Of a stretch of 64,000 nucleotides of DNA, positions 1 to 50,569 are shown piece by piece. The notes beneath the pieces were generated by a model. That model saw only the letters and a list, made by a program, of their open reading frames with translations. It did no database searches and was not told the origin of the DNA. How positions within the stretch are numbered: position 1 is the stretch's first letter; every line of letters begins with the position of its first letter. The DNA is taken from the IMG/VR virus record IMGVR_UViG_3300021964_009390, positions 62,001 through 126,000 of that record; one strand, written 5' to 3'. A program made the translations under genes and the position numbers. The DNA is from a virus.

Positions 1-1163
1 AAAAACGTGGCAAGCTGTTGTTGATAGACGACAATTTCGCGTATGACTCGCAAGGTCAAGGCTTCAACCGCGCTAAAACTGTGGTGGAAATGCTATGCAA
101 AATGTTCCATGTGACTTTCATGCCAACTAACTATCGACCATGTGATCATGATCGAATAGAACATTACCATACGTTGGGTGTGAATGTGGTGCTGGAGCGT
201 CGCGATCATCATGGTATGAAAATATTTGATGTGGTGGGTGAACATATAAAGCAACATGCCGGTGAATACGATGTGATATATTTCAGCCGACCTCACAACT
301 TTGGATATGTGATAGATTACTGCCGCGAGCATTCTCCATCTAGCAAAATAGTGTATGATGCAGAAGCGTTGTTTTACAAGCGTATACAAGCTCAATACAA
401 CACCACCGGGCAGATCAGCATCTGGCCACCATGTGACACACCGTCACAGCAAGTGGTGGATCAAGAGAAGGCAAAAGAATTTGACATGTTGTCCAAAACG
501 GACAATGTTATTGTTGTGTCAGATTCAGAACGTGAAAGTGTGGTCAAAAACGTACCGGCTTTGAAGGGTAAAGTTGCAGTGTATGGACATGCTATACCAC
601 CTCGACCTACCGATAACAACTATCATGAGCGAGCGCACATGCTGTTTGTAGGTTCTTTCGGTAAGGATGACACACCCAATTCTGACGCCATGATACATTT
701 TGTGAACAACATGTTTGACAAGATACATGAACGTACCGGTAGCAAATTGTACATCATAGGTACAAACCCAACCGAGACCATTTTGTCTCTGACCAGTGAC
801 AAGGTGGAGGTTCTAGGTTATGTAGAGGACATAACACCGTACTACAATAATTGTCGATTGTTTGTGGCCCCACATCGCTTCGCCGGAGGTATACCATGGA
901 AAATATCGGAATCCATGTCGAGAGGTTTACCGGTCGTCATCACAAAACTACTGGCCGATCAGTTGGGTATCGGGAGAGAATGTTGCGGTGTGGGTGATAA
1001 CGATACTCAATTCATAAACCAAGCGGTACAAATATACAACTACTCAACCCGGTGGGACAATTGTAGGAACAAAAGCTTACAATACATAAAAAACACACAT
1101 GACCCCATGACACATAGAAAGCAGCTACTAAACAGTATAAACAAGGCATTAAAAACACCATGA
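1..1163 (+). CDS. Glycosyltransferase, GT-B/GT4-like (5' end outside window)
   Basis: The reading frame is open to the left edge (codons from base 3: K-R-G-K-L-L-L-I-D-D), so the first in-window start at base 18 is probably internal and the N-terminus is missing. The visible 380 residues have GT-B architecture: an N-terminal Rossmann part, then VIVVSDSERE, a substrate/nucleotide-sugar half with LFVGSFG, LYIIGTNPT, VEVLGYVEDI, and the late KISESMSRGLPVV segment that matches the donor-sugar binding region of GT family 4. Expected role: transfer of a sugar from a nucleotide donor to a glycan. It overlaps the next sulfotransferase by ATGA, so sugar addition and sulfation are probably co-translated. 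Confidence 0.75.
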   Translation, partial: KRGKLLLIDDNFAYDSQGQGFNRAKTVVEMLCKMFHVTFMPTNYRPCDHDRIEHYHTLGVNVVLERRDHHGMKIFDVVGEHIKQHAGEYDVIYFSRPHNFGYVIDYCREHSPSSKIVYDAEALFYKRIQAQYNTTGQISIWPPCDTPSQQVVDQEKAKEFDMLSKTDNVIVVSDSERESVVKNVPALKGKVAVYGHAIPPRPTDNNYHERAHMLFVGSFGKDDTPNSDAMIHFVNNMFDKIHERTGSKLYIIGTNPTETILSLTSDKVEVLGYVEDITPYYNNCRLFVAPHRFAGGIPWKISESMSRGLPVVITKLLADQLGIGRECCGVGDNDTQFINQAVQIYNYSTRWDNCRNKSLQYIKNTHDPMTHRKQLLNSINKALKTP

Positions 1164-1945
1164 AAAAATATAAAGACAACTTTTTAATTATGTGCGAGTC
1201 ACGGACCGGTAGTACCATGTTGAGTACTGCACTCTGGAACCATCCGCAGGTGTGCATGCATGGAGAGATATTGCAACCTCGGCAGTTCAATAAACAAAAA
1301 CGCGATGACAAATTAGAATTTTTCGGGCTGAGCTACGATACACCAGGAGCTTTGCTCGATCTGTTACGTGATGAGCTGGTGAATGATCCGGTAAAATATA
1401 TAAGCAGGTACGGTTTCTATACCGGTAGATACAAACGTGGAGGTTTCAAATTTAAATATGAAGAGATGTCATGTGGATTGTTTGATCCAGTATTAGAGTT
1501 TATAGTCACACATCCGGAGATCAAAATAATACATTTGACCCGGGACAATCTGTGGCACCGGTATAGATCTTCATATGTAGCCACAAAAATTACAAAACAA
1601 TACAACTCGGTAACAGACACGATATCAATCGATACTGACACTGACAAGGTCAAATTGAATATACAAGATATTGAATCGAGTTTCAAGCGGACAGTTCAAT
1701 GGCAAAGGAAATATAGAAACATGTTCAAACACCATGCGATGTTAAACATAACATACGAATCACTCCTGGCTGACCCGCAAGGAACTTTTGACCAAGTGAC
1801 CGGTTTCTTAAAAATATCCAACCAAAAATGGAAACCATGGACAAAGCAAGTACAACCAGTACAGGACGATGACATAATCCGAAACATGGATAAGATCAGA
1901 GAGCATTTCATTTCCAGTAAATACGGTGTATATTTCGATAAATAA
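1160..1945 (+). CDS. Sulfotransferase (Stf0 / Sulfotransfer_3-like)
   Basis: 261 residues. The N-terminal FLIMCESRTGSTML is the 5'-phosphosulfate-binding loop of PAPS-dependent sulfotransferases, and IIHLTRDNLWHRYRSSYVA is the 3'-phosphate-binding segment (R...S). Inferred role: transfer of sulfate from PAPS to a sugar hydroxyl. It belongs to a different subfamily from the short Sulfotransfer_2 proteins further along the island and lacks their shared C-terminal tail. Its start overlaps the upstream glycosyltransferase stop (ATGA), indicating translational coupling. Confidence 0.8.
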   Translation: MKKYKDNFLIMCESRTGSTMLSTALWNHPQVCMHGEILQPRQFNKQKRDDKLEFFGLSYDTPGALLDLLRDELVNDPVKYISRYGFYTGRYKRGGFKFKYEEMSCGLFDPVLEFIVTHPEIKIIHLTRDNLWHRYRSSYVATKITKQYNSVTDTISIDTDTDKVKLNIQDIESSFKRTVQWQRKYRNMFKHHAMLNITYESLLADPQGTFDQVTGFLKISNQKWKPWTKQVQPVQDDDIIRNMDKIREHFISSKYGVYFDK

Positions 1946-2020: not shown

Positions 2021-2989
2021 ATGAATGTAGGTTTTTTTACACCTGGATTTAACTACCGCGGTACAGGAGTCGCGATATATGATTATGCAAACTACAATGA
2101 AAGTATCTTAGGTAATCAATCGTATATAATATCTTGCGGCACCGGGGCAAGTAGCGACATCCGTCGTAAGTTTGAGGACCGGTTCGGTGACAGAATGCTA
2201 GGGTGTGGTCATTCTAAATCAAAGCTAGAGTCGCATCTGAACGATCATAACATCACTCATCTATACCGGCTTATCGCAGGAACCAAGTGCGAATTCGAAA
2301 ACCCGGATAACCCTAGGGAGCTGAGTACCATGGTCAAGGAGTGTATACATTGTGTTTTCAACGCTAGCGAACCTCATGGTGATGTCTATGCCGCTATATC
2401 AGATCAAGTCAAAGGATATCATGCATCTGTACCGGTAGTACCTCATATGATATCGTTACCCAACGATACACATAATTTGAGAGCAGAACTAAATATACCT
2501 GATACTGCAACAGTATTTGGTGGTTATGGTGGTAAATGTAAATTTAGTATTCAAGCGGCACGAGATGCTGTTTATCAAGTCGCGAAAGCTCGGACTGATA
2601 TATATTTCCTCTTCGCGAATTTTGATAGATTCTGTGAACATTTACCTAACATTATACATGTACCAACTATATACAATGTAGATGATAAAGTGAGTTTCAT
2701 AAACACATGTGACGCGATGCTGTGGGCCCGTAATGATGGAGAAACGTTTGGTATAGCTATTGGTGAATTTTCCTCAAAAAACAAACCGGTGATTGCAAAA
2801 AAATGCGGTAAGTTAGCCCATGCAAACATTTTAAAGAACAAGGGTATATGGTATGAAGGCAAACAGGATTTAATTGATATATTGCACGCGTTTGATAGGT
2901 GCAAATCTGTAACCGGTGACTGGAATGCATATACTGATTATACACCGGAAAAGGTAATAAATATATTTAACAAAGTATTTTTGAAATGA
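2021..2989 (+). CDS. Glycosyltransferase, GT4-like
   Basis: 322 residues. The N-terminus MNVGFFTPGFNYRGTGVAIYDYA has the glycine-rich donor-fold opening of GT-B enzymes. The C-terminal half contains FINTCDAMLWARNDGETFG, which corresponds to the conserved DxxxxPSxxExFG-type region of GT4 enzymes. It ends with an ATGA overlap into the next sulfotransferase, so it is part of the same operon. The exact sugar specificity cannot be read from the sequence. Confidence 0.7.
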   Translation: MNVGFFTPGFNYRGTGVAIYDYANYNESILGNQSYIISCGTGASSDIRRKFEDRFGDRMLGCGHSKSKLESHLNDHNITHLYRLIAGTKCEFENPDNPRELSTMVKECIHCVFNASEPHGDVYAAISDQVKGYHASVPVVPHMISLPNDTHNLRAELNIPDTATVFGGYGGKCKFSIQAARDAVYQVAKARTDIYFLFANFDRFCEHLPNIIHVPTIYNVDDKVSFINTCDAMLWARNDGETFGIAIGEFSSKNKPVIAKKCGKLAHANILKNKGIWYEGKQDLIDILHAFDRCKSVTGDWNAYTDYTPEKVINIFNKVFLK

Positions 2990-3591
2990 TAAACCATGAG
3001 CACAAATGTATTTTTATACATATACCAAAATGTGGTGGGTCTAGTGTTGAACGACATATAGATAACCGAGACTGGTGGGTACATGCCCCGGCGGAGAAAC
3101 ATTTAACCGCCAATGATGCACGGAACAAATATGCGCAATATTGGGATGATTATTTTAAGTTTTCTATAGTACGTAACCCGTATGATATAGAAGTCTCATG
3201 GTACCATTTCAAAAAACACCCATTTATCCATGGACGGGAGATAGGCTTTTCAGAGTTTATCAAAGACGAGAGTATTAACACAGTAGCGAAAATTAGTCAC
3301 GGTCTTACGGACAAAAGATGGGAGAATATTATACCGAGTGTTACCGACTGCTATGAGTATTTGTCTATTGACGATACTATCGCGATGGATTATATCGGTA
3401 AACTCGAAAATATTCGACAAGACTTCAATACAATCTGTGACAAAATAGGGATACCACGGCAACAACTTCTACATGTAAACAAAACAAACCACAAACACTA
3501 CACTGAATACTATGATGATGAAACAAAGCAAATCGTTGCGGAAAAATACGCAAAAGACATTGAGTATTTTGGTTATGAATTTGGAGAATGA
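2986..3591 (+). CDS. Sulfotransferase family 2 (Sulfotransfer_2), tail-module type
   Basis: 201 residues. IFIHIPKCGGSSVERH is the PAPS 5'-phosphosulfate loop and FSIVRNPYDIEVSWY the 3'-phosphate-binding segment. The last 40 residues carry the shared tail module (CDKIGIPRQQL, then HYTEYYDDETKQIVAEKYA, then GYEFGE) found in six other genes of this window. The DNA coding for the end of the tail (TTTGGAGAATGAGGG) also places a GGAG ribosome-binding sequence immediately before the next start at 3595. Likely sulfates a surface glycan. Confidence 0.85.
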   Translation: MINHEHKCIFIHIPKCGGSSVERHIDNRDWWVHAPAEKHLTANDARNKYAQYWDDYFKFSIVRNPYDIEVSWYHFKKHPFIHGREIGFSEFIKDESINTVAKISHGLTDKRWENIIPSVTDCYEYLSIDDTIAMDYIGKLENIRQDFNTICDKIGIPRQQLLHVNKTNHKHYTEYYDDETKQIVAEKYAKDIEYFGYEFGE

Positions 3592-3594: not shown

Positions 3595-4209
3595 ATGATA
3601 AGTCATAAACATAAATTTGTATTTATATGCGCCCCTAAAACGGGAAGCACTTCAGTATCAAAAGCATTAGATGAATATTGTATTAAATTTTCACCTCGTA
3701 AAAAGCATTTTACATATTCTGAGTATTTGGATAACAAACGGGTTGGTGAAACGGTTAATAAAGATTATTTTTTCTTTGCATTTGTGAGAAATCCATTTGA
3801 TAGACTTGTGTCACAATTCAAATTTACGGGAAAGAAATGGTGGAAGAAAGCAGGACTTTCGCAATCCTCGTTGTGTTTTGAAAATTATGTTAAGCAAATA
3901 GTTGCCTGCAACTTACCATTTTCTGTTCATCGATACAATTCAAAAATAAAATCAGATCAAACAGATAAAGATTGGTCACAATTGCAGTTTCTAAGTGAAG
4001 ACATAGATTTCATCGGAAGATATGAAAACCTCCAAGAAGACTTTAATATTGTGTGCGACAAAATTGGAATTCCAAAACAACAACTTCCACACAAAAATGC
4101 CACAAAACACAAACACTACACCGAATACTACGATGATGAAACTCGTCAACTTGTTGCGGAAAAGTATGCAAAAGACATTGAGTTGTTCGGATACAAATTT
4201 GGAGAATAA
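3595..4209 (+). CDS. Sulfotransferase family 2, tail-module type
   Basis: 204 residues. FVFICAPKTGSTSVSKAL is the PAPS-binding loop and FAFVRNPFDRLVSQF the second signature. The shared tail ends GYKFGE. The terminal bases TTTGGAGAATAAGATG both encode this end and bring a GGAG ribosome-binding site to the ATG of the next gene; the same string recurs at the end of the relic at 4755-4892. Composition is more AT-rich than the glycosyltransferase at 2021, consistent with separate origins inside one operon. Confidence 0.85.
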   Translation: MISHKHKFVFICAPKTGSTSVSKALDEYCIKFSPRKKHFTYSEYLDNKRVGETVNKDYFFFAFVRNPFDRLVSQFKFTGKKWWKKAGLSQSSLCFENYVKQIVACNLPFSVHRYNSKIKSDQTDKDWSQLQFLSEDIDFIGRYENLQEDFNIVCDKIGIPKQQLPHKNATKHKHYTEYYDDETRQLVAEKYAKDIELFGYKFGE

Positions 4210-31425: not shown

Positions 31426-32016
31426 ATGCTGAGCCATGAACATAAGTATATTTTTCTCCATGTACCCAAGTGCGGAGGTTCTTCTGTAGTTGCAGCACTG
31501 TCGAGACACCCACATAGCAAAAAATTCAAAACTGGGCACCCGGTGCTGGCTAGTTACTTCGATGAGTTCGGTGATAATGTCCGGGATTACTTTATTTTCT
31601 CCATTGTGAGGAATCCGTTCGCAAGAGCGGTCAGTGCGTTCAAGTACCTTCAAAAAGGAGGAAGTAAAAGTTCATCAGACATAAGAGACCGAGATCAATT
31701 TGACATGAAAGGCTTGGATTTTAATAAATTTGTATTGAAATATTTTGACCAAAAAACACCTCTACATTTTCGTTCTCAAGCGGCATTTATAGGTGAATAT
31801 TTTAAACATGTAGACTATATTGGTAAACTCGAAAATATACAGTTGGATTTTGATAATATTTGTGACAAAATTGGAATCTCAAGAAAAAAACTTCCACATG
31901 TGAATAAAACCAATCACTTGCATTACACCGAGTATTATGATGATGAAACTCGTGAACTTGTTACAGAACGATACGCAAGAGATATTGAATTGTTTGGTTA
32001 CGAATTTGGTGAATGA
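31426..32016 (+). CDS. Sulfotransferase family 2, tail-module type
   Basis: 196 residues. YIFLHVPKCGGSSVVAALS (PAPS loop) and FSIVRNPFARAVSAFKYL (3'-phosphate segment). Shared tail module CDKIGISRKKLPH, HYTEYYDDETRELVTERYA, GYEFGE. The end couples by ATGA to the next sulfotransferase. First gene of the second island. Confidence 0.85.
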   Translation: MLSHEHKYIFLHVPKCGGSSVVAALSRHPHSKKFKTGHPVLASYFDEFGDNVRDYFIFSIVRNPFARAVSAFKYLQKGGSKSSSDIRDRDQFDMKGLDFNKFVLKYFDQKTPLHFRSQAAFIGEYFKHVDYIGKLENIQLDFDNICDKIGISRKKLPHVNKTNHLHYTEYYDDETRELVTERYARDIELFGYEFGE

Positions 32017-32630
32017 TATATGGACCTCGATGTATGAAGAAAACAATTTATATAAGGATGCCAAGATGTGGATCTTTTACAGTGGTCAGTCTTTGTGAAA
32101 AAAATAATATTAAATATTACGGTGGTAGAGATATGGGTTTTTGGAACTATAATACAAACCATACAAAGAATACTTCACCGAAACTGTACAAATGCGTAGA
32201 AAACTATGTAAATGAAAAAGTGTATAATGAAAGTTTCATCTTTACAACTGTAAGGAATCCGTATTCCCGTGCAGTTTCAATGTATAAACACGAATCATGG
32301 GACTCCGCGAGAACTTTCAGCGACTTTTGTAATAAACTTATAAGAGATGAATACCCTTCAAAATTTGCAAAATGGCATAGCTCCACCTTGACAGAGCATA
32401 TTGTCGATAAGGATATTCTCAAAGTTGATTTTGTAGTCAAACTTGAAAATTTTCAACAAGACTTCGATACGGTCTGCGACAAAATAGGGATACCACGTCA
32501 ACAACTTCCACATGAAAACAAATCAAAACACAAACACTACACCGAATACTATGATGAAGAAACAAAACAAATTGTTGCGGAACGATACGCACGTGACATC
32601 GAGTTGTTCGGGTATGAATTTGATAAATAA
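32013..32630 (+). CDS. Sulfotransferase family 2, tail-module type
   Basis: 205 residues; ATG 32034 (MKKTIYIRMPRCGSF) is an alternative start. PAPS loop YIRMPRCGSFTVVSL and FTTVRNPYSRAVSMYKH. The final coding 85 bases (32538-32622) are identical to those of the gene at 35609, although the N-terminal parts are unrelated at DNA level. The tail ends GYEFDK. Confidence 0.85.
   Translation: MIYGPRCMKKTIYIRMPRCGSFTVVSLCEKNNIKYYGGRDMGFWNYNTNHTKNTSPKLYKCVENYVNEKVYNESFIFTTVRNPYSRAVSMYKHESWDSARTFSDFCNKLIRDEYPSKFAKWHSSTLTEHIVDKDILKVDFVVKLENFQQDFDTVCDKIGIPRQQLPHENKSKHKHYTEYYDEETKQIVAERYARDIELFGYEFDK
32538..32622 (+). repeat. 85-nt perfect direct repeat, copy A (sulfotransferase tail)
   Basis: Identical base for base to 36107-36191 and running from the TEYY codons to the YEF codons. 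Synonymous positions are also identical, which protein-level conservation alone does not explain. Confidence 0.9.
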
Positions 32631-32635
32631 CTAAC

Positions 32636-33364
32636 ATGAAAGCTATAGTGCAGAGTTGCGACAGATATCACAGTATGGCTCAAAACATGCTGGTTCAATA
32701 CGAAAAATTATGGCCATCTAATCCTTTTACATTCAGGGTCCCATGGAATGAAAAATATCCAGAAGTTATAGAAAATCAATTTGGAAGTAAAATAGAATTA
32801 ATTAACGCTGGAATTAAATTTAAGCAAACATTTCATGCACTAACTAAAGATCTTGATGACAATGACTGGGTTTATTGGTGTATTGATGACAGATACCTAA
32901 TAAGCATTGAAGAAGGGGAAGCTAATCAAGTTCTTAATTTTGTAGAATCAATTAAAAACCCTAACATCATTAATGTGTGCTTTCATTTTGTCAGGTATAT
33001 AAAAGATTCTGCAAATTGTATACAAAGAGAAGGCTCAGGTGTAGAAATTTATTTTGAAAACTTGAGATTTATACAACACAAATCTTTTATCAACAATTGG
33101 TTGCACCAATTTTTTAGAGTTAAAGCGTTAAGAGAGTTCTGGAGGCACATAGAAGAGCCACCTCAATATCAAGCCATACAAATGGATTACAGCACAAAAC
33201 CTTTAAATGGAATTTCTTTAACTTTAGACCATAATATATCCAGGTACGGAGAAAGCACGGAGGGGGGAACGATCACAAAAAATTGTCAAAATAGTTGTAT
33301 TGAAAATAATATATCAATCCCAAAAATTTTTTTATCAAAAAAACAAAAAACAATTATTATTTAA
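32636..33364 (+). CDS. Glycosyltransferase-like protein (GT-A type)
   Basis: 242 residues. MKAIVQSCDRYHSMAQNML is a typical GT-A opening and DDNDWVYWCIDDRYL supplies a D-x-D-like metal/nucleotide motif around residues 75-90. The C-terminus ends in a Lys/Ile-rich stretch from an AT-rich 3' end, next to a stray copy of the sulfotransferase tail. Sugar specificity unknown. Confidence 0.6.
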   Translation: MKAIVQSCDRYHSMAQNMLVQYEKLWPSNPFTFRVPWNEKYPEVIENQFGSKIELINAGIKFKQTFHALTKDLDDNDWVYWCIDDRYLISIEEGEANQVLNFVESIKNPNIINVCFHFVRYIKDSANCIQREGSGVEIYFENLRFIQHKSFINNWLHQFFRVKALREFWRHIEEPPQYQAIQMDYSTKPLNGISLTLDHNISRYGESTEGGTITKNCQNSCIENNISIPKIFLSKKQKTIII

Positions 33365-33367
33365 AAT

Positions 33368-33424
33368 CAGGACATTGAGTATTTTGGGTACGAATTCGAA
33401 CAAACGTCCAAAAAAGAATGGTAA
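33368..33424 (+). pseudogene. Orphan sulfotransferase tail fragment
   Basis: An 18-codon fragment QDIEYFGYEFEQTSKKEW, directly after the previous stop, without any start or upstream gene. Its DNA nearly matches the tail end of the gene at 33463. It marks a former sulfotransferase whose front was replaced. Confidence 0.7.
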
Positions 33425-33462
33425 TACAGTAATGGATCAGGCTAAATAATTATATTATTAAT

Positions 33463-34044
33463 ATGATCAACCACAAACACAAATTTATTTTTATTCACAT
33501 ACCAAGAACTGGTGGGACTAGTATAGAGCAACAGTTTAGTTATAATGGAGATCGTTCTGGAGACGGAAAAAAACATTGGAATCTAGATCAATACAAAGAT
33601 GTATTATCCAACGAACAATTTGATAATTATTTTAAATTCACTTTCATCAGGAACCCCTGGGATATTGTAATTTCTAAATATATGGATAGAGGTTGGTATT
33701 CTAGCCCCATCAAAGGAAGGGGCGGTAAAATTGGATATTATTCCGGGCAAAAGTTAAGTTATTTTTTAAATCATTATCAACCCGCCAGACATGAGTATGG
33801 AGATAGTTTTTTTGATTATTTCAACCCCAAACAAATTGATTTTGTTGGCCGTTTTGAAGATAGAAGGAAAGGTTTAAATTTTATATCAAAAAAAATCGGC
33901 ATTAATCTTAATCCTCAAACTAAATCTAGATCCAATTCTGACAAAAAACACTACACCGAATACTACGATGATGAGACAAGACAAATGGTTGCGGAAAGAT
34001 ATGCACAGGACATTGAGTTGTTCGGGTACGAATTCGAATCGTGA
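33463..34044 (+). CDS. Sulfotransferase family 2, tail-module type
   Basis: 193 residues. FIFIHIPRTGGTSIEQQF (PAPS loop), FTFIRNPWDIVISKYMD, and HYTEYYDDETRQMVAERYA, GYEFES. Closest in layout to the gene at 35609 (HIP/VPRTGGTS.., KHWNLDQYK / KHWTLNQWK, NPWD..ISKY). A weak TATATT lies 6 nt before the ATG. Confidence 0.85.
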   Translation: MINHKHKFIFIHIPRTGGTSIEQQFSYNGDRSGDGKKHWNLDQYKDVLSNEQFDNYFKFTFIRNPWDIVISKYMDRGWYSSPIKGRGGKIGYYSGQKLSYFLNHYQPARHEYGDSFFDYFNPKQIDFVGRFEDRRKGLNFISKKIGINLNPQTKSRSNSDKKHYTEYYDDETRQMVAERYAQDIELFGYEFES

Positions 34045-34856
34045 ATATAAAAAATATTAATACAATTAAGTTATTTTCTGATCCACTGTTCGATGCGCAT
34101 TTTTCTGTCGATCCTGGTTCTAAATTTTTAATATTTAAATCAATAGATTTTAAAACGGTAAGTGCTACATTAAAAGTAGATCCGGTGAGTCTGGTTAAAT
34201 TTTTAAACGATATATGTATGGAGATGTATAGAAATGGTAAAACTAATGGTATACCTCGAGATGTGTCGATAAATTTACATGATCATTATTTTTGTGCGGA
34301 AACTATAAGAGATATATATTCAGGTATTATTTCTGACCTGCTAGCGGACAATAGTGAATGGAGTACAAACGAAATTGTTTCATTTGGGTTTTTATGCGGT
34401 AACACTAAACCTCAAAGATTGAAATACATTGAAATGGGTAAAAGTTTTTCTCAACTAAACTACATATCGACAAAAAAATACAATAGGTACTCCAAAGATA
34501 CAGACGGCTTCACAAGCGTGATAAAATTAAAAAAAGATTATAAGTATTTTATCGATTTAACCGGTCATAGCTACAGTACTAAAACATATCAATTTCTAGC
34601 ATCCAAACGCGTATACTTCACTTCTAAACATAATGAGATTTTAGACTGGGAAGCAAATCACTTAAAACCCTGGGAAAATTACATCCCGGTTGAAGATGAT
34701 CTTTCAGATCTTATAAGTAAATATCAAACAATAGAATCAAACCCGGTATTATATAAAAAAATTATTAAAAATAATACCAATTTGATAGCAAATCAACTCT
34801 CTCATAAATTAATGTTACAGCATTTAATAAAGACTATTTCAGCGTACATTATATAA
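34041..34856 (+). CDS. Glycosyltransferase family 90-like (CAP10 type)
   Basis: 271 residues from GTG 34041 (GTGA overlap with the upstream stop). FIDLTGHSYSTKTYQFLASK, then LDWEANHLKPWENYIPVEDD and LSDLISKYQTI match the GT90/CAP10 core (D-x-x-G-x-x-x-S...LKPWxHY-x-P-x-x-x-D-x-x-DL). Family members transfer xylose or glucose to capsule or protein glycans. Translationally coupled to a sulfotransferase. Confidence 0.7.
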   Translation: MNIKNINTIKLFSDPLFDAHFSVDPGSKFLIFKSIDFKTVSATLKVDPVSLVKFLNDICMEMYRNGKTNGIPRDVSINLHDHYFCAETIRDIYSGIISDLLADNSEWSTNEIVSFGFLCGNTKPQRLKYIEMGKSFSQLNYISTKKYNRYSKDTDGFTSVIKLKKDYKYFIDLTGHSYSTKTYQFLASKRVYFTSKHNEILDWEANHLKPWENYIPVEDDLSDLISKYQTIESNPVLYKKIIKNNTNLIANQLSHKLMLQHLIKTISAYII

Positions 34857-34903
34857 ATATAAGGAAGTTGAAAAATAATCAATTGTAGTTAATTATATAT
34901 ATT

Positions 34904-34975
34904 ATGAGAGTAGCTGTAACTGGAACTGCGTGTGTAGGTAAAAGCACATTTGTGAATGATTTTTTAAAAAATTGA
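34904..34975 (+). pseudogene. P-loop kinase N-terminal fragment
   Basis: A 23-codon frame MRVAVTGTACVGKSTFVNDF contains an intact Walker A (GTACVGKST), then stops after LKN just before the next gene. A TTGAAA and an AT-rich -10-like stretch lie upstream. Probably the remaining front of a deleted nucleotide or adenylylsulfate-type kinase. Confidence 0.5.
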
Positions 34976-34976
34976 T

Positions 34977-35612
34977 ATGAACATCAATTTATATGTGTCA
35001 TACTATAAGGATAAAATAAACGAGAGGAATCTGGAGCTAGAGCAGTGCCTGCTCGGTAATCTAACCAATGCCGCGGTAGACAACGTATATCTGCTAGCTG
35101 AAAACACCCCACCAAAACGGTTTCGGACTAACAGTAAAGTCACTGTCATACCACATAAACGACCCACGTTCACCAATTTTTTCAACATTGTGAACGACAC
35201 AACAGGTGCAAAGGATCTGAACATAGTCGTGAACAGTGACATCTACCTACCGGACAACATCGCGGACATACACCCTCATGTGAGTATGGACACAGTAGCA
35301 TGCATGTCCCGGTGGGAGTTACAATCTGATGGTTCGCTTGTACAGGCACGCGGACCACGTGGTGACAGCCAGGACGCGTGGATGTGGAGAGGCAAGATTC
35401 GCGAGGTGGATTACAGTGACTTCAACCTGGGTGTACTGGGTTGTGACAATCGAATAGCCTGGGAGTTCATGAACGTGGGTTATCGATTGATAAATCCATG
35501 CGAGACATTCAAAATAGCCCATGTACACAACTCCAAAGTCAGAAATTACAGATACAATGATCTGAATGACAAAGTGTCTGGACCATACCAGTTTGTGTCA
35601 CATAGCGCATGA
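34977..35612 (+). CDS. Glycosyltransferase-like protein (GT-A type)
   Basis: 211 residues. NIVVNSDIYLPDNI provides a D-x-x motif after a Rossmann-like strand, followed by CMSRWELQSDGS and DSQDAWMWRG and the acceptor-type YSDFNLGVLGCDNRIAWEF. These resemble family 2-like glycosyltransferases of phage and polysaccharide clusters. ATGA overlap with the following sulfotransferase. Confidence 0.6.
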   Translation: MNINLYVSYYKDKINERNLELEQCLLGNLTNAAVDNVYLLAENTPPKRFRTNSKVTVIPHKRPTFTNFFNIVNDTTGAKDLNIVVNSDIYLPDNIADIHPHVSMDTVACMSRWELQSDGSLVQARGPRGDSQDAWMWRGKIREVDYSDFNLGVLGCDNRIAWEFMNVGYRLINPCETFKIAHVHNSKVRNYRYNDLNDKVSGPYQFVSHSA

Positions 35613-36199
35613 TAAGTCACGAGCATAAATTTCTTTTCATTCATGTGCCACGGACAAGTGGTAGCAGCATCGAGATACAGTTTAAATACAACGATGCAGG
35701 TATGTGGATGGTAAACTATGATGGTCGTAAGCATTGGACATTGAACCAATGGAAAGAACATTTAGAACCGGAAGTATTTGAAACATATTTCAAATTCACA
35801 ATTGTCCGGAATCCTTGGGACCGGGTAATCAGCAAATATTGTACACGTAATGAGTTTGGACCGATCGGACAACCGGCCGGAAAATCACTGAAATATTTTC
35901 TAGACAATTACAAAACTCCCGGGAACGAACATGGAGAGACCTTGATTGATTATTTCGATCCGGAGCAGATGGATTACATCGGTAGATTTGAATCTAGAGA
36001 GGACACATTAACATATGTGTCACAGAAAATTGGTGTAGAAATAGACAATAGCTACAAGCTTAGACCAGTACAAGCCACGATCAAGCAACAAAACGATAAC
36101 CATCATTACACCGAATACTATGATGAAGAAACAAAACAAATTGTTGCGGAACGATACGCACGTGACATCGAGTTGTTCGGGTATGAATTTGGTGACTAA
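35609..36199 (+). CDS. Sulfotransferase family 2, tail-module type
   Basis: 196 residues. FLFIHVPRTSGSSIEIQF (PAPS loop), FTIVRNPWDRVISKYC and the tail HYTEYYDEETKQIVAERYA, GYEFGD. The last 85 coding bases before GGTGAC are identical to the gene at 32013. Last gene of the second island; ordinary late genes begin 48 nt on. Confidence 0.85.
   Translation: MISHEHKFLFIHVPRTSGSSIEIQFKYNDAGMWMVNYDGRKHWTLNQWKEHLEPEVFETYFKFTIVRNPWDRVISKYCTRNEFGPIGQPAGKSLKYFLDNYKTPGNEHGETLIDYFDPEQMDYIGRFESREDTLTYVSQKIGVEIDNSYKLRPVQATIKQQNDNHHYTEYYDEETKQIVAERYARDIELFGYEFGD
36107..36191 (+). repeat. 85-nt perfect direct repeat, copy B (sulfotransferase tail)
   Basis: Second copy of 32538-32622, 3.5 kb downstream. Recombination between the two would remove the intervening four genes. 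Confidence 0.9.
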
Positions 36200-37510: not shown

Positions 37511-37837
37511 TCAATAACGTGTATATGCTCTCAAACTGGCTAGAATCCGGTTCAGATTCCCGGACCAGAATCGACGCGCGTGTACAGCGCAAGGGGTAGT
37601 ATCACTTACAATCACACCAGCTTCTTCTCCAGGGTGTATTATGTCATCAACATAATCGAACGCACCATGCGCAGTCAGGTATTTGTAGCATGTGTCCACA
37701 TGATGTGGTTCCGACTCAATAACAACATCATGTTCAGTGTACACTTTGGTGTACAGCGTGATGTCGCGGAACACACTGATCTCACTAGGTGGAAATATTA
37801 AATCGTTTTTTATAATGATAATGTTTGATACTCTCAT
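37511..37837 (-). CDS. Hypothetical protein (108 aa)
   Basis: Start at ATG 37837; a longer open frame to 37960 runs antisense into the kinase gene and is rejected. DITLYTKVYTEHDVVIESEP and HGAFDYVDDIIHPGEEAGVI vaguely resemble part of a HAD-type fold but lack its DxDxT motif. Transcribed from a late box shared with the divergent gene. Confidence 0.55.
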   Translation of the reverse strand: MRVSNIIIIKNDLIFPPSEISVFRDITLYTKVYTEHDVVIESEPHHVDTCYKYLTAHGAFDYVDDIIHPGEEAGVIVSDTTPCAVHARRFWSGNLNRILASLRAYTRY

Positions 37838-37844
37838 GCTCAGG

Positions 37845-37852
37845 TATAAATA
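37845..37852 (+). promoter_or_regulatory. T4-type late promoter TATAAATA
   Basis: Exact consensus; +1 at 37858, only 2 nt before ATG 37860. Confidence 0.8.
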
Positions 37853-37854
37853 AC

Positions 37855-37862
37855 TATTTATG
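37855..37862 (-). promoter_or_regulatory. Late-type promoter CATAAATA (minus strand)
   Basis: Forms a near-palindrome with the plus-strand box at 37845 (TATAAATAACTATTTATG); would start RNA near 37849, 12 nt before ATG 37837. Confidence 0.6.
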
Positions 37863-38732
37863 AAACTCAAGAGAAAAATTTTGATAATGGGGCTCCCGGG
37901 TGCAGGTAAAACTACACTGGCGGAATTGTTGGTACAAAAGCTATGCGCAGTGTGGTTCAATGCGGACGCTGTTCGTCAAGAGATCAGCAAAGATCTTGGT
38001 TTCACAGCAAATGATAGACTAGAGCATTCACGACGCATGGGTAAAATGTGTGAATTCGCTAGTAAATTCGGAACCTGGGCCATAGCCGATTTTGTATGTC
38101 CCACCAATAAAGCTAGAGAGCTGTTCGATGCAGACTACATAATCTGGGTGGATCGAATCAAGGAAGGTAGATTTGAAGATACAAACAAGATGTTCGAACC
38201 ACCAGCGAATGCAGATCTTGTGTTGAGAGACGGTACACCACAAGAGTGGTTGGAACAGTCCATGGATCTTTTGAAACCGGAGCTATGGGACAATCAAGCT
38301 CCAACCGCGTTGTTGATTGGCCGTTATCAACCATTCCATAAAGGACATAAAACACTAGTGGCCGAAGCCATCAAACGTACCGGGCAATGCTGCATAGCTC
38401 TTAGAGACGTGGGGGGAAAGGATGATAGTAATCCATATGACTTTCAGCAAGTGAAACGTGAGATACACGCGGCATGTCCGGAGTTTGGTGACAAAATAAA
38501 AGTTGTCGAGCTCCCCAACATCACCGATGTATTTTACGGTAGAGGTGTGGGTTACAACATAGAACAACTGGAACTAGACAAGAGCATCCAGGAAATATCG
38601 GCCACCAAGATTCGCAAAGGTGAGATAGACCAACAAGGTAACAAATTGAACAAAAACACAGGTGGTCACAATCCGTTCACTGGAGAAGGTCTCCAAGTTG
38701 ACACACAAAACACAGACCGACGTTACGAGTGA
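37860..38732 (+). CDS. APS kinase-like domain fused to a nucleotidyltransferase domain
   Basis: 290 residues. Residues 1-145: Walker A GLPGAGKTTLAELL and FNADAVRQEISKDLGF with TANDRLEHSRRMGKMCEFA, which closely follow the APS kinase (CysC) signature DGDNVR..L..DLGF..EDR.ENIRR. Residues 146-290: LLIGRYQPFHKGHKTLV and ISATKIRKGE, an NMNAT/NadR-type nucleotidyltransferase. If the first domain acts as in CysC it makes PAPS from APS and ATP, the donor required by the sulfotransferases here. The second domain differs from ATP sulfurylase in its motif, so a full PAPS synthase is possible but unproven. Confidence 0.7.
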   Translation: MKLKRKILIMGLPGAGKTTLAELLVQKLCAVWFNADAVRQEISKDLGFTANDRLEHSRRMGKMCEFASKFGTWAIADFVCPTNKARELFDADYIIWVDRIKEGRFEDTNKMFEPPANADLVLRDGTPQEWLEQSMDLLKPELWDNQAPTALLIGRYQPFHKGHKTLVAEAIKRTGQCCIALRDVGGKDDSNPYDFQQVKREIHAACPEFGDKIKVVELPNITDVFYGRGVGYNIEQLELDKSIQEISATKIRKGEIDQQGNKLNKNTGGHNPFTGEGLQVDTQNTDRRYE

Positions 38733-41615: not shown

Positions 41616-41621
41616 ACAGTG

Positions 41622-44069
41622 ATGAACGTTACTAAAAGAAACGGTAAGAAAGAAAATTTTAATGAGGACAAAATACTAGCCTGTGTACGGAGAGCTTGTG
41701 ACGGTGATGAAGAACTTGTACAAAAAGTATATTGGAACACCAAACTAAATTTATATGATGGTGTCAAAACCAAAGAAATAGATGAATCTGTGATCAAATC
41801 TGCTCGGTCGTTGATAGAGAAAGACCCTAGATGTAAATACGTTGCTGCAAAGCTGTTGCTAGCTACAATATACAAAGAGGTGTTTGGTGAAGGTGCAGAT
41901 AGTGATGCTTTTGTGTTACAGTACAAAAAAACGTTCATTGTCAATCTGAAAAAACTTATCAAAGAGAAGATTGTTAACAAAGAGTTGGCTAAGTTTGATT
42001 TACAAAAACTGTCAGATGCGTTGGAAATTGATAGAGATTACAGGTTTGAATATCTAGGTTTGCAGACAGTATACGATAGATATCTTATGCATATCAATGA
42101 TGTGAGGATGGAGACTCCTCAAGCATTTTGGATGAGAGTTGCTATGGGGCTCGCGTTGAAGGAGGACCCGAATACTCGCGAAGAATGGGCCATAAAATTT
42201 TACAAGCAGATAAGCAGTTTCGATTTCATGTGCAGTACACCCACATTGTTCAACAGTGGTGGTACATTCAATCAATTGAGTAGTTGTTTTTTAAACACGT
42301 TCGAAGACAGTATCAACGGAATATTTGATGGTTTACATCAAGAAGCTTTGAAGAACAAATACGCTGGTGGTTTGGGTATGGATTTGACAAATTTCCGGGC
42401 ATGTAACAGTTACATTCGAGGGACTAATGGTTACACACAGGGTGCTGTGTATTTCTGGAAACTGTACGGTGACATGCTCACCGCGGTGAATCAAGGTGGT
42501 AAACGACGAGGCGCTGGATGCGCTTATTTAGAGACCTGGCATGCCGACATCGAGGATTTTATACAGCTCAGAAAAAACACTGGAGATGATCGCAAACGCA
42601 CACATGACATGAACACAGCCAACTGGATACCAGACTTGTTCATGAAATGTGTACAAAACGATGAACCATGGTATCTATTCAGTCCTAATGAAGTACCAGA
42701 GTTACATGAATTACATGGTCGTGAGTTTGAAAAAAAATATAAAGAGTATGTCAAGCGCGGAAAGAGGGGTGAGCTTAGAATATTCCGGGAAATTAATGCA
42801 AAAGATTTGTGGAAAAAAATGCTGAGAAGTTTATTCGAGACCGGGCACCCATGGATTACTTTCAAAGACCCTAGCAACACTAGATATAGTAATCAGCATG
42901 CCGGTGTAGTGCATAGCAGCAATTTATGTACCGAGATTTTATTACACACCAAAGCTACTCAATATCATGAAAACAGTCGGAAGGTGAAGTCTCACGGTGA
43001 AACGGCAGTGTGTAATCTGGGTAGTGTGAATCTGAAAAACCACGTAAAAACTGATGCAAACGGTAACGTTAGTATTGATTATAACAAATTGAAAAACACT
43101 GTCTCGTTAGGTTTACGTATGTTAGACAACGTGATAGATATCAATTTCTACCCGACAGAAGAGACTAAAAAAAGTAACATGACTCACCGGCCGGTTGGAA
43201 TGGGTAGCATGGGGTGGCATGACATGTACTATGCTCTAGGTATTGAATTTGATAGTGATGAAGCTGTGAAAATGAGCAGCGATTTGTATGAGTTCATATC
43301 ACATGCTTCGATTGAAGCAAGTTGTGGCCTGGCTAAAGAGCGTGGTAAATATCAGAGTTACGATGGTTCGTTGTGGAGTAAAAATGTTTTCCCTATGGAT
43401 ACATATAAAGATGTGATGAAGTTACGTGAGCATCGTGCCATGAGTCGTTCACGTGGTGATCTCGATTGGACCAAGTTGCGTGACAAAGTTAGTAAACATG
43501 GCATGAGAAACAGCAACACCATGGCGATCGCACCAACCGCTACTATATCTTCAATAACCGGATGTAGTCCGAGCATCGAACCGTATTTCTCTGTATTGTA
43601 TGTGTATAGTACACTAAGTGGTGAGTTCACAATGATTAACGAACATTTTGTAACAGACATGAAAAAATTAGGTAAGTGGGATGAATCATTGGTTGACGAC
43701 CTCAAGAGGACCGATGGAGATGTTTCTCAAATACCTACCGTACCTGAAGAGATAAGAAGGAAATATAAAACGGCATTCCAACAAGACCAAATGAAAATGA
43801 TCGAACAAGCCGGTGCCCGGCAGCGTTGGATAGATCAGGGGCAAAGTTTAAATTTATACAACAACGAGACCAGTCTGAAATACTTGAACGATTTGTACTT
43901 CCATGCGTGGAATCAAGGTCTCAAAACAACATATTACCTGAGGAATCAGAGCGCTAGCAAAATTGAGAAGAGTACAGTTTCTAAAGTGAGTGATCCAGCC
44001 ACTCCGGAGATTGAAAATATATCGGCATGTAGTCTCAATAATCCGGGGGAATGTGAGAGTTGTCAATAG
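41622..44069 (+). CDS. nrdA: Ribonucleoside-diphosphate reductase, large subunit (class Ia)
   Basis: 815 residues from ATG 41622. An N-terminal ATP-cone (MNVTKRNGKKENFNEDKILA) is present. Active-site region NSGGTFNQLSSCFLN, MDLTNFRACNSYIRG, RRGAGCAYLETWHADIEDFI, SSNLCTEILL, TATISSITGCSPSIEPYF and the redox-active C-terminal pair CESCQ are intact. Reduces NDPs to dNDPs with NrdB, supplying precursors for phage DNA. Start chosen because the -10 is 6 nt upstream. Confidence 0.97.
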   Translation: MNVTKRNGKKENFNEDKILACVRRACDGDEELVQKVYWNTKLNLYDGVKTKEIDESVIKSARSLIEKDPRCKYVAAKLLLATIYKEVFGEGADSDAFVLQYKKTFIVNLKKLIKEKIVNKELAKFDLQKLSDALEIDRDYRFEYLGLQTVYDRYLMHINDVRMETPQAFWMRVAMGLALKEDPNTREEWAIKFYKQISSFDFMCSTPTLFNSGGTFNQLSSCFLNTFEDSINGIFDGLHQEALKNKYAGGLGMDLTNFRACNSYIRGTNGYTQGAVYFWKLYGDMLTAVNQGGKRRGAGCAYLETWHADIEDFIQLRKNTGDDRKRTHDMNTANWIPDLFMKCVQNDEPWYLFSPNEVPELHELHGREFEKKYKEYVKRGKRGELRIFREINAKDLWKKMLRSLFETGHPWITFKDPSNTRYSNQHAGVVHSSNLCTEILLHTKATQYHENSRKVKSHGETAVCNLGSVNLKNHVKTDANGNVSIDYNKLKNTVSLGLRMLDNVIDINFYPTEETKKSNMTHRPVGMGSMGWHDMYYALGIEFDSDEAVKMSSDLYEFISHASIEASCGLAKERGKYQSYDGSLWSKNVFPMDTYKDVMKLREHRAMSRSRGDLDWTKLRDKVSKHGMRNSNTMAIAPTATISSITGCSPSIEPYFSVLYVYSTLSGEFTMINEHFVTDMKKLGKWDESLVDDLKRTDGDVSQIPTVPEEIRRKYKTAFQQDQMKMIEQAGARQRWIDQGQSLNLYNNETSLKYLNDLYFHAWNQGLKTTYYLRNQSASKIEKSTVSKVSDPATPEIENISACSLNNPGECESCQ

Positions 44070-44717
44070 ATGAGACCCCAAGTGTTAATTGTAGGTTGGG
44101 GAGGAGCTGGTCAAACATATCTACTGGAACAATTTAACAAACATGGAGTCCGGACGAATCATTGGAATGATGAAGACAAAGTAAAACATTGTACGTATAA
44201 CTACTTTATAAACCATAACATATACAATATCACCAGAGAACATTTGAATACAATTCCAATTATATACATGTATTGTGATCCGGTAGTTGCTATCAACAGT
44301 TATTATCGTAGAAACTTCGCTAATGCACAACATTACAAAATGAACAGAGATCATGATATATCTAGTATGGAAGCCGAGCAGAATGGGTTGTATACTGCTA
44401 TACCCAATGATAGAACCAAATACATACACCGGGTCATGACAGCCAAGCGAGACTTGTTCAATTATATAAATCACGCTAGAGGGTGGATGAACGCGCCTAG
44501 AATATTTCCAATGTCATTGGAGGACATCATCAAATACAAATCACAATTGTCAGACAAGTTACGTGTACCGTTGAACGTGTTCAACGGTCTGGAAATAAAG
44601 CCTAGAAGTTCTAAAAACCAGGCCCCACAAGCATTCCGCGACGTGTATCTTAAGGTGTATAATGATGTTAGAATTTTGTGCCGGAAATACTTGAATAACA
44701 GTCTCAAAAAAATTTAA
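44070..44717 (+). CDS. Divergent sulfotransferase-like protein between nrdA and nrdB
   Basis: 215 residues. VLIVGWGGAGQTYLLEQFNK has the position and glycine pattern of a PAPS or nucleotide loop, and YCDPVVAINSYYRRNFA resembles the RDP...S.YRR 3'-phosphate segment of sulfotransferases. The resemblance is weaker than for the other members; a different P-loop enzyme is possible. The gene abuts the nrdA stop and separates it from nrdB, which has its own late promoter. Confidence 0.5.
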   Translation: MRPQVLIVGWGGAGQTYLLEQFNKHGVRTNHWNDEDKVKHCTYNYFINHNIYNITREHLNTIPIIYMYCDPVVAINSYYRRNFANAQHYKMNRDHDISSMEAEQNGLYTAIPNDRTKYIHRVMTAKRDLFNYINHARGWMNAPRIFPMSLEDIIKYKSQLSDKLRVPLNVFNGLEIKPRSSKNQAPQAFRDVYLKVYNDVRILCRKYLNNSLKKI

Positions 44718-44721
44718 TCTC

Positions 44722-44729
44722 AATAAATA
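44722..44729 (+). promoter_or_regulatory. Late-type promoter AATAAATA of nrdB, predicted leaderless
   Basis: The box ends 5 nt before ATG 44735. A late-type box for nrdB is unusual since nucleotide metabolism is normally early or middle. Confidence 0.75.
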
Positions 44730-44734
44730 AACAT

Positions 44735-45739
44735 ATGTCTACTAAATCAGGAAAAGTACTGGATGGAGATTCAGCCGGAGTCAATCAAATATTACCACAT
44801 GTCAACAAATGGGCATGGGACTTGTACAAGCAAGGTAAAAACAACAATTGGACTCCGGAGGAGGTGCCAATGACTAAAGACATACAAAACTGGAAACAAG
44901 ACGGTGTAATTAGTGATGATGAGCGTTTACTTATCAAAAGATGTTTGGGTTTTTTCGCTGGAAGTGAAAGTCTTGTAGGTAACAACTTGTTCACACTGTT
45001 CAAGTATGTAACTGATCCAGAGTGTCGCCAGTATATGGCTAGACAAATGTATGAAGAGTGTTTACATAATGATACAATAGTGTATATATGTGACAGTTTA
45101 GATCTAGATATAGACGAGGTATACGAGGCATACAACACGATCCCTAGTATTAAAGCTAAGGATGATTTTCTAATGAATGTGACCAAGGGTCTCGGTAAAC
45201 AGATTGACACATCAACAACTGAGGGTCAACGTGAATTGATCAAAGGAGCATTCATATATTGGATTGTATGTGAAGGTACATTCTTCTTCAGCGGTTTTGC
45301 TATGTTGTTAGCGTTATCTAGAAAAATCCCGGGTGTTTGTGAACAGATACAATATACATTGAGAGACGAGAGTATTCATATCAAATTCGGTACTACATTG
45401 TTGAACAAAATCAAAGAACAATACCCAGATGCATGGGATGACACCTTAGAGAATGAACTAGTAGAGAATCTAAAATCTGCTGTTGAGCTAGAGATACAGT
45501 ATGCTAAAGATGTATTGCCTCGAGGTATACTAGGGTTAAATGCTGATATGTTTGTCGATTACATGCAACATATTGCTAACCGTCGGTTGTCTGGGTTGGG
45601 TATGAAGTTCCGATACGACAAAGACACAAATCCGTTTCCTTGGTTGAGTGAAACAATCGATTTACAAAAGCAAAAGAACTTTTTTGAAACCAAAGTTACT
45701 GATTACCAAAATTCAGGGGCTTTGGATGACGATTTTTAA
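44735..45739 (+). CDS. nrdB: Ribonucleoside-diphosphate reductase, small subunit (class Ia)
   Basis: 334 residues. Ferritin-like diiron protein with ligand-bearing segments GFFAGSESLV, MYEECLHNDT, IYWIVCEGTFFFSGFAML and YTLRDESIHIKFG, and the C-terminal SGALDDDF tail that docks on NrdA. Generates the tyrosyl radical for NrdA. Confidence 0.97.
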   Translation: MSTKSGKVLDGDSAGVNQILPHVNKWAWDLYKQGKNNNWTPEEVPMTKDIQNWKQDGVISDDERLLIKRCLGFFAGSESLVGNNLFTLFKYVTDPECRQYMARQMYEECLHNDTIVYICDSLDLDIDEVYEAYNTIPSIKAKDDFLMNVTKGLGKQIDTSTTEGQRELIKGAFIYWIVCEGTFFFSGFAMLLALSRKIPGVCEQIQYTLRDESIHIKFGTTLLNKIKEQYPDAWDDTLENELVENLKSAVELEIQYAKDVLPRGILGLNADMFVDYMQHIANRRLSGLGMKFRYDKDTNPFPWLSETIDLQKQKNFFETKVTDYQNSGALDDDF

Positions 45740-45872
45740 AATATTGAGATCGCTTGTCAGATACATATACCGGTCATTTGTACCACATACTGATAGGAAG
45801 TATCATGGGGTGGACTGGATTAGAATCAGACGGAATCAAGAAAAGCCTCTACGATTGACTAAATACCGATAG
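45726..45872 (+). CDS. Small basic hypothetical protein (48 aa)
   Basis: ATG 45726 overlaps the nrdB end by 14 nt. MTIFKILRSLVRYIYRSFVP..., strongly basic and amphipathic. Unknown. Confidence 0.45.
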   Translation: MTIFKILRSLVRYIYRSFVPHTDRKYHGVDWIRIRRNQEKPLRLTKYR

Positions 45873-45919
45873 CTGGGTGCATTATTGTATCGAAAGGGGT
45901 GGGTTGAGCGGGAATTTTT

Positions 45920-46633: not shown

Positions 46634-46664
46634 GTCTGTAAACATGTATATATTTACACCATTG

Positions 46665-46693
46665 TTGACAATGATCAATCTATAGCTTAATAT
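46665..46693 (+). promoter_or_regulatory. Sigma70-type promoter, predicted leaderless
   Basis: Consensus TTGACA, 17-bp spacer, TAATAT ending 6 nt before ATG 46700. Its -35 overlaps a minus-strand TTGTCA, so the two directions may compete. Confidence 0.85.
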
Positions 46694-46699
46694 AATAAC

Positions 46700-46876
46700 A
46701 TGAACAGACATTTGAAATACCATCTCCGTTGGCAATGCGGGTTTCTTGTATGTTACCCGACCATGTGGCTGTTCTCAGACTACATGCAATTACCATTGTG
46801 GTTGAGCGTGGTCCTGTTTCAATTTGTTGGTGCATCAATATTTTACCATGTGGATAGGTACATTTTTAAAAAATAG
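46700..46876 (+). CDS. Small two-helix membrane protein (58 aa)
   Basis: MNRHLKYHLRWQCGFLVCYP..., hydrophobic segments around MWLFSDYM and LSVVLFQFVGASIFYHV, and end YIFKK. Resembles short membrane proteins seen in T4-like marine phages. Unknown function. Confidence 0.6.
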   Translation: MNRHLKYHLRWQCGFLVCYPTMWLFSDYMQLPLWLSVVLFQFVGASIFYHVDRYIFKK

Positions 46877-46906
46877 TTGGACATATTACAATCTAGACTA
46901 TATAAT
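46877..46906 (+). promoter_or_regulatory. Sigma70-type promoter, predicted leaderless
   Basis: TTGGAC, 18-bp spacer, consensus TATAAT ending 6 nt before ATG 46913. Confidence 0.7.
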
Positions 46907-46912
46907 AACTAT

Positions 46913-47596: not shown

Positions 47597-47625
47597 TGTA
47601 GTAGTTATCTGATTAATAACAACCT

Positions 47626-49867: not shown

Positions 49868-50569
49868 TTATATAGTCGTTACGGCATGTTGATACAGCTT
49901 CATATCTAATGAATTGTGCATCATCTCACTAACTATCTGTCGCTCAAATGGTGTAGTGTTATTATTTTTTTGCCGGTTGAGTATTTCTAGCTTGCATGTT
50001 TGTTTATTTTCAATTTTAAAATCAGTGCATATATTTTTAATTACTTCTGTAAGTTGATCGTTTATTTTTTCTAGAATTAACGTGTATGTTATATTGTCAT
50101 AATCTTTACATATTGTATCTATATCATTGGATTGACTTACATACTCACACATCAAACTGGAGTAAGATAAACAGTATTTTTTGAGTGTTTCAGCCGGTAA
50201 CCTTCTCATAGGTTTATTGTCGAATTTAACTTTGTCAAAATAGTAATAATGACTTATCAAACGATCGACCGGATGTCTCAACACACATAATGATTTGCAG
50301 CTGTCAGATCTAGTGACTACATCATTGTTTTTTGTGTGACATAACACTATTTTTATCTGTTCTAAATGTTCATTCAACACCCCCATTGCAGCTACGTAAT
50401 CATCATTTGTGGTTAAATTTATACCCTTGTAATCGCAGTCACCAAACAGTGTTTGCGGAAAGTATATCTGTTGATGGGTGTATTTTGTAATAAATGCTTT
50501 GTATAGTAGTGAACGTACGCTAGTACCACCGCATTTTGGTATATGATAAAATATAAATTCCGGATTCAC
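49868..50569 (-). CDS. Sulfotransferase family 2 (no shared tail)
   Basis: 233 residues. EFIFYHIPKCGGTSVRSLLY (PAPS loop) and LCVLRHPVDRLISHYYYFDK. It lacks the tail module of the plus-strand genes and is longer. ATGA-type overlap with the upstream glycosyltransferase, repeating the glycosyltransferase-sulfotransferase pairing of both islands. Confidence 0.85.
   Translation of the reverse strand: MNPEFIFYHIPKCGGTSVRSLLYKAFITKYTHQQIYFPQTLFGDCDYKGINLTTNDDYVAAMGVLNEHLEQIKIVLCHTKNNDVVTRSDSCKSLCVLRHPVDRLISHYYYFDKVKFDNKPMRRLPAETLKKYCLSYSSLMCEYVSQSNDIDTICKDYDNITYTLILEKINDQLTEVIKNICTDFKIENKQTCKLEILNRQKNNNTTPFERQIVSEMMHNSLDMKLYQHAVTTI

Follow-up and report, generated by a model that had tools for sequence, protein, structure and literature searches.

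A viral kinase-nucleotidyltransferase fusion as a predicted bifunctional PAPS synthase for virus-encoded sulfotransferases

The animal PAPS synthases PAPSS1/2 carry an APS kinase first and an adenylyltransferase of the HIGH superfamily second on one chain, and the HxGH motif is required for the ATP sulfurylase activity of PAPSS1 (PMC11697783). In Allochromatium vinosum, sat lies immediately upstream of aprMBA, and the GRD loop and SGTxxR of Sat are parts of the APS site (PMC3779200). The genes aprBA are also present in SAR11, where sat and cysDN are mostly missing, and the disposal of APS in SAR11 is an acknowledged gap (PMC5069961, PMC10356861). The phage protein described here has the same domain order on one chain as PAPSS1/2, but its nucleotidyltransferase (NT) is compact, NadM-like and of about 115 aa instead of being a Sat domain, its kinase lid is shortened, and the whole protein has 290 aa against about 620 aa. 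The related NT of SAR11 resembles the A. vinosum Sat (PMC3779200) in its place upstream of aprM-aprB-aprA and appears to resemble it in motifs of the HxxH and SxTxxR types and in a loop like GR[D], whereas it has neither a PF01747 match nor QXRN and is about a third of the length. With the NadM-type NMN adenylyltransferases, its nearest sequence relatives, the NT core shares GRxQPxHxGH, NPF and SxTxxR, but it falls far below the curated cut-offs and differs in a shorter acceptor-binding segment, a GR[DG]VGY loop and sulfur gene contexts. Finally, the family has in common with CysC/NodQ and the NodH-NodPQ locus the kinase core, a whole APS kinase in haloarchaea and a Microvirga copy in such a locus, whereas the phage and SAR11 kinases are without the canonical lid and the proposed ATP sulfurylase is not CysDN/NodPQ.

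The window, that is, the whole stretch of DNA analysed (64,000 nucleotides; positions 62,001 to 126,000 of the IMG/VR virus record IMGVR_UViG_3300021964_009390), carries a gene that a first-pass annotation had described as an APS-kinase-like domain fused to a HIGH-type NT, possibly supplying PAPS to sulfotransferases encoded in the same window. The fusion was borne out by the reading of the ORF and by Pfam matches, and the supply of PAPS is supported by the genome contexts described below (apr, cysQ, haloarchaeal, Microvirga and DUF2061 linkages). It is very probable that the 290-aa protein of this marine-type phage, a predicted bifunctional PAPS synthase, serves the eight sulfotransferases of the window, with the NT as a new ATP sulfurylase. 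The features of the gene are the following.

37860..38732, plus strand: bifunctional kinase-NT gene, proposed PAPS synthase (ATG start, 290 aa, complete)
37878..38280, plus strand: APS-kinase-like domain, about residues 7-140 (Pfam APS_kinase; top Foldseek PDB matches are APS kinases)
37890..37913, plus strand: P-loop GLPGAGKT, residues 11-18 (G11-G14, G16 and K17 invariant in 27 homologues)
37959..38036, plus strand: NADAVR to R59, equivalent of APS kinase DGDNVR...F...R...RR (alignment)
38166..38204, plus strand: GRFEDTNKMFEPP, residues 103-115, shortened counterpart of the lid and FTGID.PYEPP segment (alignment)
38283..38663, plus strand: HIGH-superfamily NT domain, proposed sulfate adenylyltransferase (profile matches, AlphaFold2/Foldseek)
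38319..38348, plus strand: HIGH motif GRYQPFHKGH, residues 154-163 (G154, R155, Q157, P158, H160, G162 and H163 invariant)
38514..38555, plus strand: PNITDVFYGRGVGY, residues 219-232, GR[DG]VGY loop (conserved in the family and in haloarchaea)
38595..38615, plus strand: ISATKIR, residues 246-252, S[AG]TxxR motif (alignment)

The motifs quoted in the first-pass annotation are present in the protein (GLPGAGKT at 11-18, NADAVR at 34-39 and LGFTANDRLEHSRR), as are the further motifs GRYQPFHKGH at 154-163 and ISATKIR at 246-252. Chance is ruled out by full-length relatives of 45-79% identity in 80 kept viral loci and in cellular genomes. The PHROGs family of the pair is phrog_10255, labelled “kinase”, and a scan for promoters and terminators around the gene gave results at chance level.

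On the demand side, the sulfotransferase genes of the window, which had been put at around ten, number eight of the PAPS type (seven Sulfotransfer_2 and one Sulfotransfer_3), all over the cut-off.

1160..1945, plus strand: sulfotransferase (Sulfotransfer_3; 47.6 bits)
2986..3591, plus strand: sulfotransferase (Sulfotransfer_2; 55.4 bits; IPKCGGSS and IVRNPY motifs)
3595..4209, plus strand: sulfotransferase (Sulfotransfer_2; 71.5 bits; motifs read)
31426..32016, plus strand: sulfotransferase (Sulfotransfer_2; 74.8 bits; motifs read)
32013..32630, plus strand: sulfotransferase (Sulfotransfer_2; 56.8 bits; motifs read)
33463..34044, plus strand: sulfotransferase (Sulfotransfer_2; 58.2 bits; motifs read)
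35609..36199, plus strand: sulfotransferase (Sulfotransfer_2; 55.7 bits; motifs read)
49868..50569, minus strand: divergent sulfotransferase (Sulfotransfer_2; E 3.1e-6 over the cut-off, E 8.9e-30 with an HMM seeded from the window; motifs read)

As both PAPS-binding type motifs are visible in the eight genes, the demand for PAPS is regarded as real. Over the whole virus record of 222 kb, Sulfotransfer_2 is matched ten times, once in a sequence with an internal stop, and Sulfotransfer_3 only by the gene already listed; the match with the TAA stop (G000:C1:41821-42396) lies outside the window. The plus-strand Sulfotransfer_2 paralogues (2986-4209 and 31426-36199) are almost the same in one C-terminal stretch, HYTEYYDDETRQ.VAE.YA.DIELFGYEF, while their N-terminal halves diverge, which suggests duplication or recombination. 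Genes for DUF1796 (papain-like), GT61, GT90 and other glycosyltransferase-like proteins are interleaved with the sulfotransferases at 4022-6767 and 34041-36199, and these stretches are possibly a glycan-modifying island. No DNA-level relatives of 41619-49867 were found in named phages.

Relatives of the kinase-NT gene are widespread among viruses: a scan of viral contigs gave at least about 600 stretches, nearly all true relatives, while the named phages are few, namely Stenotrophomonas phage DLP_6 and four others with genomes of about 56 kb, of which two belong to the Casjensviridae. In Stenotrophomonas phage Bhz60, a NADAR-domain gene (L002:7565-8008, product name in the record, riboflavin biosynthesis protein) runs into the start of the kinase-NT gene. 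A tree of the NT places the window in one group with five further phages (100/99); copies from phages stand among those from cells in it, and the label changes at least twice. The rate of sulfotransferases per 10 kb is 0.30 for the phage loci with kinase-NT and 0.058 for UvsX control loci that lack the pair; by phage group, it is 1.37 for the clade of the window, 0.24 for L037-L083 and 0.037 for L012-L036, the HMM behind these rates being seeded from the window and hence favouring its clade. An enrichment across all kinase-NT phages was rejected, since it is strong in the window's clade, weaker in L037-L083 and absent in the large marine phage clade L012-L036. Furthermore, 10 of 50 whole phage contigs have Sulfotransfer_2, and in many fragmentary kinase-NT phage contigs a recognisable sulfotransferase was not found. 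This last point favours the reading that PAPS is made but not mainly for the phage enzymes, that is, for host sulfotransferases or for altering the APS/PAP pools of the host. Such a use is unlikely, in view of the eight sulfotransferases of the window with intact PAPS-binding type motifs and of the strong enrichment in its clade, which argue for PAPS supply to the virus's own sulfotransferases.

The kinase half was examined by profile, alignment and fold. Pfam APS_kinase matches residues 7-87 with 52.2 bits (E 8.9e-14, cut-off 21.1, passed), and the match spans only positions 5-90 of the 152 of the profile. Of the CysC profile searches that had been proposed, the Pfam one succeeded, whereas the NCBIfam profile apsK (TIGR00455) gave 49.4 bits against a cut-off of 138.7. 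In an alignment of 27 fused proteins D36, R39, F48, R53 and R59 are invariant and aligned with those of APS kinases. The canonical lid KG.Y..AR.GEI..FTG.D.P.E, which is complete in the haloarchaeal fusions, is incomplete in phages and SAR11, and the shortened lid of the 27 fused proteins keeps EDTNKMF. The kinase was rejected as a CysC equivalog because it is below the cut-off and the lid is missing, and with this shortened lid the substrate of the phage kinase is one that we infer. The structure prediction that had been called for points the same way as the Pfam match: the AlphaFold2 model of the 290-aa protein (pLDDT 84.9) finds nothing but APS kinases in the first 20 PDB matches and little else among the best 50 listed, where entries for full-length human PAPSS1 rank 22nd and 26th.

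The HIGH-type NT begins at about residue 143, and Pfam CTP_transf_like matches residues 152-176 with 23.4 bits (cut-off 21). Conserved across the 27 fused proteins are GRxQPxHxGH, R182, P192, PNI, YGRxVGY and SATxxR, and phage copies keep all of these invariants in the alignment. By profile the NT is nearer to NadM-type NMN adenylyltransferases than to Sat, and it is much shorter than NadM, the match to the NadM profile stopping before the acceptor-binding part. In the NadM and Sat searches suggested in the first-pass annotation, NadM-type enzymes came out nearest but far below the cut-off of arch_NMN_Atrans (NCBIfam TIGR01527; 21.0 versus 181.2 bits, and 24.6 bits for the SAR11 NT), and Sat (PF01747) gave no match in the Pfam scan of the 290-aa protein, on which ground the NT was rejected as a Sat. 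In hhalign, the SxTxxR region alone aligned with Sat. The AlphaFold2 model of the NT alone (pLDDT 90.8) gave weak Foldseek matches to phosphopantetheine and NMN adenylyltransferases, with ATP sulfurylases ranked lower among them. Set against the active-site motifs of Sat (HxxH, GRD loop, SGTxxR and QXRN), the protein has HKGH, GRGVGY (GRDVGY in others) and SATKIR, and the sulfate-binding QXRN is absent; the GR[DG]VGY loop is proposed, by motif order, as the equivalent of the GRD loop of ATP sulfurylases. As the nearest relatives are NMN adenylyltransferases, the sequence tells the ancestry of the NT, not its activity.

Gene context in cells carries the argument further, and the linkage to APS and PAPS enzymes recurs in unrelated lineages. 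Two neighbouring genes encode kinase and NT separately in SAR11, SAR86 and further marine Alphaproteobacteria; some SAR11 have the two fused, and in SAR11 the NT often occurs without the kinase. The order NT-aprM-aprB-aprA with a stand-alone NT was found in 14 SAR11 stretches (L168-L179, L184, L185), and the fused gene lies a few genes upstream of apr genes in three others (L085, L088, L090). In a sample of 147 SAR11-family genomes, incomplete single-cell genomes included, aprA was over the cut-off in 66, and the NT was present in 59 of these 66 and in 20 of the other 81 (Fisher p 5e-16, uncorrected for shared ancestry); NT and aprA are within 4 kb of each other in 31 genomes of the sample. 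By comparison, sat was found in 5 of the 147 and not found in 142. In addition, the NT is missing in six of the seven SAR11-family genomes with a CysNC-like protein (p = 0.05). One SAR11-family genome has a CysD-like protein paired with a CysN/CysC-like protein of 609 aa (L187:1724-4455), and both kinase-NT and aprA are absent from it. A sulfotransferase is the next gene in SAR11 L093 and the preceding gene in SAR11 L094. DmdA/GcvT-like genes adjoin the kinase-NT in SAR11 and SAR86 (L095:7806-9885, L159:7647-8816), as does an MTHFR-like gene in SAR11.

In about 32 Alphaproteobacteria the order is cysQ-kinase-NT, with cysQ directly upstream, and the CysQ of one of them (L126) passes TIGR01331 with 288 bits (cut-off 229). 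Among 25 cell genomes with the kinase-NT pair, sat was not found in 24, convincing CysD/CysH was found in none, and Sulfotransfer_3 matches were found in 18; the weak hits to CysD/CysH in SAR11 were discounted, since they cover only part of proteins of about 520 aa. Moreover, the NT is fused to a kinase on haloarchaeal plasmids of Natrinema, Haladaptatus (three), Haloprofundus, Halostagnicola, Halocatena and Natronococcus, where the gene is annotated cysC. In this fusion the whole canonical APS kinase is present (152 bits, positions 2-151 of 152, full lid), the NT keeps GRWQP.H.GH, GR[DNE]VGY and ISGTxxR (ISGAETR in one copy), and the first or second gene upstream encodes a sulfotransferase in each of the eight annotated records. 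A gene of the YqcI/YcgG family follows the kinase-NT in seven of the eight annotated plasmids (L270:9863-10612; L271, L275, L276, L278-L280), and in L277 it lies upstream on the other strand.

The single case of a decayed NT is in Microvirga, in a nod-type locus with the order NodJ-like, Sulfotransfer_3, kinase-NT, CysD-type, CysN-DUF2061. The kinase motifs are intact there, and the NT has lost G162, P192, R228 and R252, with HESH for HxGH, HGLDLGY for YGRxVGY, VSPTAVQ for ISATxxR and NP missing. Such decay beside cysDN is what would be expected if CysDN took over APS synthesis and the NT became redundant. The CysN/NodQ-like protein (L272:9178-10767, 529 aa) has a C-terminal DUF2061, and the APS kinase domain is absent from it. 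Of the 80 phage loci, 39 have DUF2061 within 300 nt of the kinase-NT, and its position beside the phage gene together with its fusion to the Microvirga CysN suggests that this membrane domain is tied to sulfate activation. It was sought and not found in the window, and sulfur neighbours were not found in the short stretches read at the DUF2061 loci of SAR11 and SAR86 genomes.

These NT contexts, namely aprMBA without sat, cysQ, the fusion to a canonical APS kinase and Microvirga, favour sulfate/APS over other substrates. An ATP sulfurylase is expected to be placed with an APS reductase or an APS kinase, and the NT is found beside aprMBA in SAR11 and fused to or beside APS kinase. Such placements lead us to infer which substrates the two domains use, which way the reaction runs and what is sulfated: the NT, of NadM-like ancestry, would join sulfate to the alpha-phosphate of ATP to give APS and PPi, the N-terminal kinase would phosphorylate APS to PAPS, and PAPS would feed the eight PAPS-type sulfotransferases of the window, which, lying among glycosyltransferase genes, probably act during infection on glycans or on other molecules of the surface.

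Two further readings take the substrates to be other small molecules. In a NadR-like NAD salvage, the kinase would phosphorylate nicotinamide riboside and the NT would make NAD, perhaps against an NAD-depleting defence of the host, as might be thought from the NadM-type enzymes as closest profile matches and from the NADAR-domain gene preceding the homologue in Bhz60. This is very improbable, as the kinase resembles APS kinases, not ribosylnicotinamide kinases, by profile, motifs and fold, 19 of the 25 pair-bearing cell genomes encode a NadD of their own that passes the cut-off, the NT is much shorter than NadM with a profile match that stops before the acceptor-binding part, and the linkage is to aprMBA, cysQ and sulfotransferases instead; as the best reading it was rejected on the apr, cysQ and haloarchaeal contexts. 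Activation of a sugar or head group, modelled on HldE or on the Campylobacter Cj1415-type APS-kinase-like CDP-amidate kinase, would have the kinase and then the NT act on another small molecule, e.g., a glycan precursor activated with CDP or ADP. Glycan genes do surround many of the phage copies and some of those in SAR11, and the lid segment is FEDTNKMF, not FTGID.PYE, but the NT standing alone beside aprMBA, its fusion in haloarchaea to an APS kinase that is complete and canonical, and the decay of the NT where cysDN is adjacent make this reading a poor candidate. Equally little is to be expected of an APS:phosphate adenylyltransferase (ADP sulfurylase), in which the NT would act on APS with phosphate, not pyrophosphate, so that in phages it would be a poor maker of APS and only the kinase half would matter: the SAR11 apr context would need APS breakdown only, but enzymes of the HIGH superfamily characteristically use ATP and release PPi, and all NT invariants are kept in phages, with decay only where CysDN is adjacent.

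With the NT read as an ATP sulfurylase, it is probably a third family apart from Sat/PAPSS and CysDN and the missing enzyme of SAR11, and the fusion a minimal PAPS synthase spread in phages, marine bacteria and haloarchaea. In SAR11 the NT would convert APS to ATP and sulfate in sulfite oxidation, and the NT fused to APS kinase would have spread as part of mobile sulfation modules. The proposal bears on how SAR11, among the most abundant marine bacteria, disposes of AprBA-made APS without sat or cysDN, on how bacteria and phages without sulfate assimilation run sulfotransferases, and on a phage-built sulfation chemistry of sulfate activation and a transferase set, presumably for surface glycans. 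If true, one step of the global sulfur cycle would gain a third enzyme family, and a function would be assigned to a gene that hundreds of phage contigs carry and that has so far been labelled “kinase” or “cytidylyltransferase”.

Two other genes of the window may be mentioned. A second small HIGH-type NT of 148 aa (17856-18302, phrog_7878, annotated heptose kinase/adenylyltransferase) adjoins a tRNA-Thr gene. In addition, a minus-strand ORF at 37511-37960 partly overlaps the start of the kinase; since its C-terminal part resembles L006:9630-9956 (minus strand), there is probably a real gene of divergent orientation that begins near 37830 and has its end at 37511.
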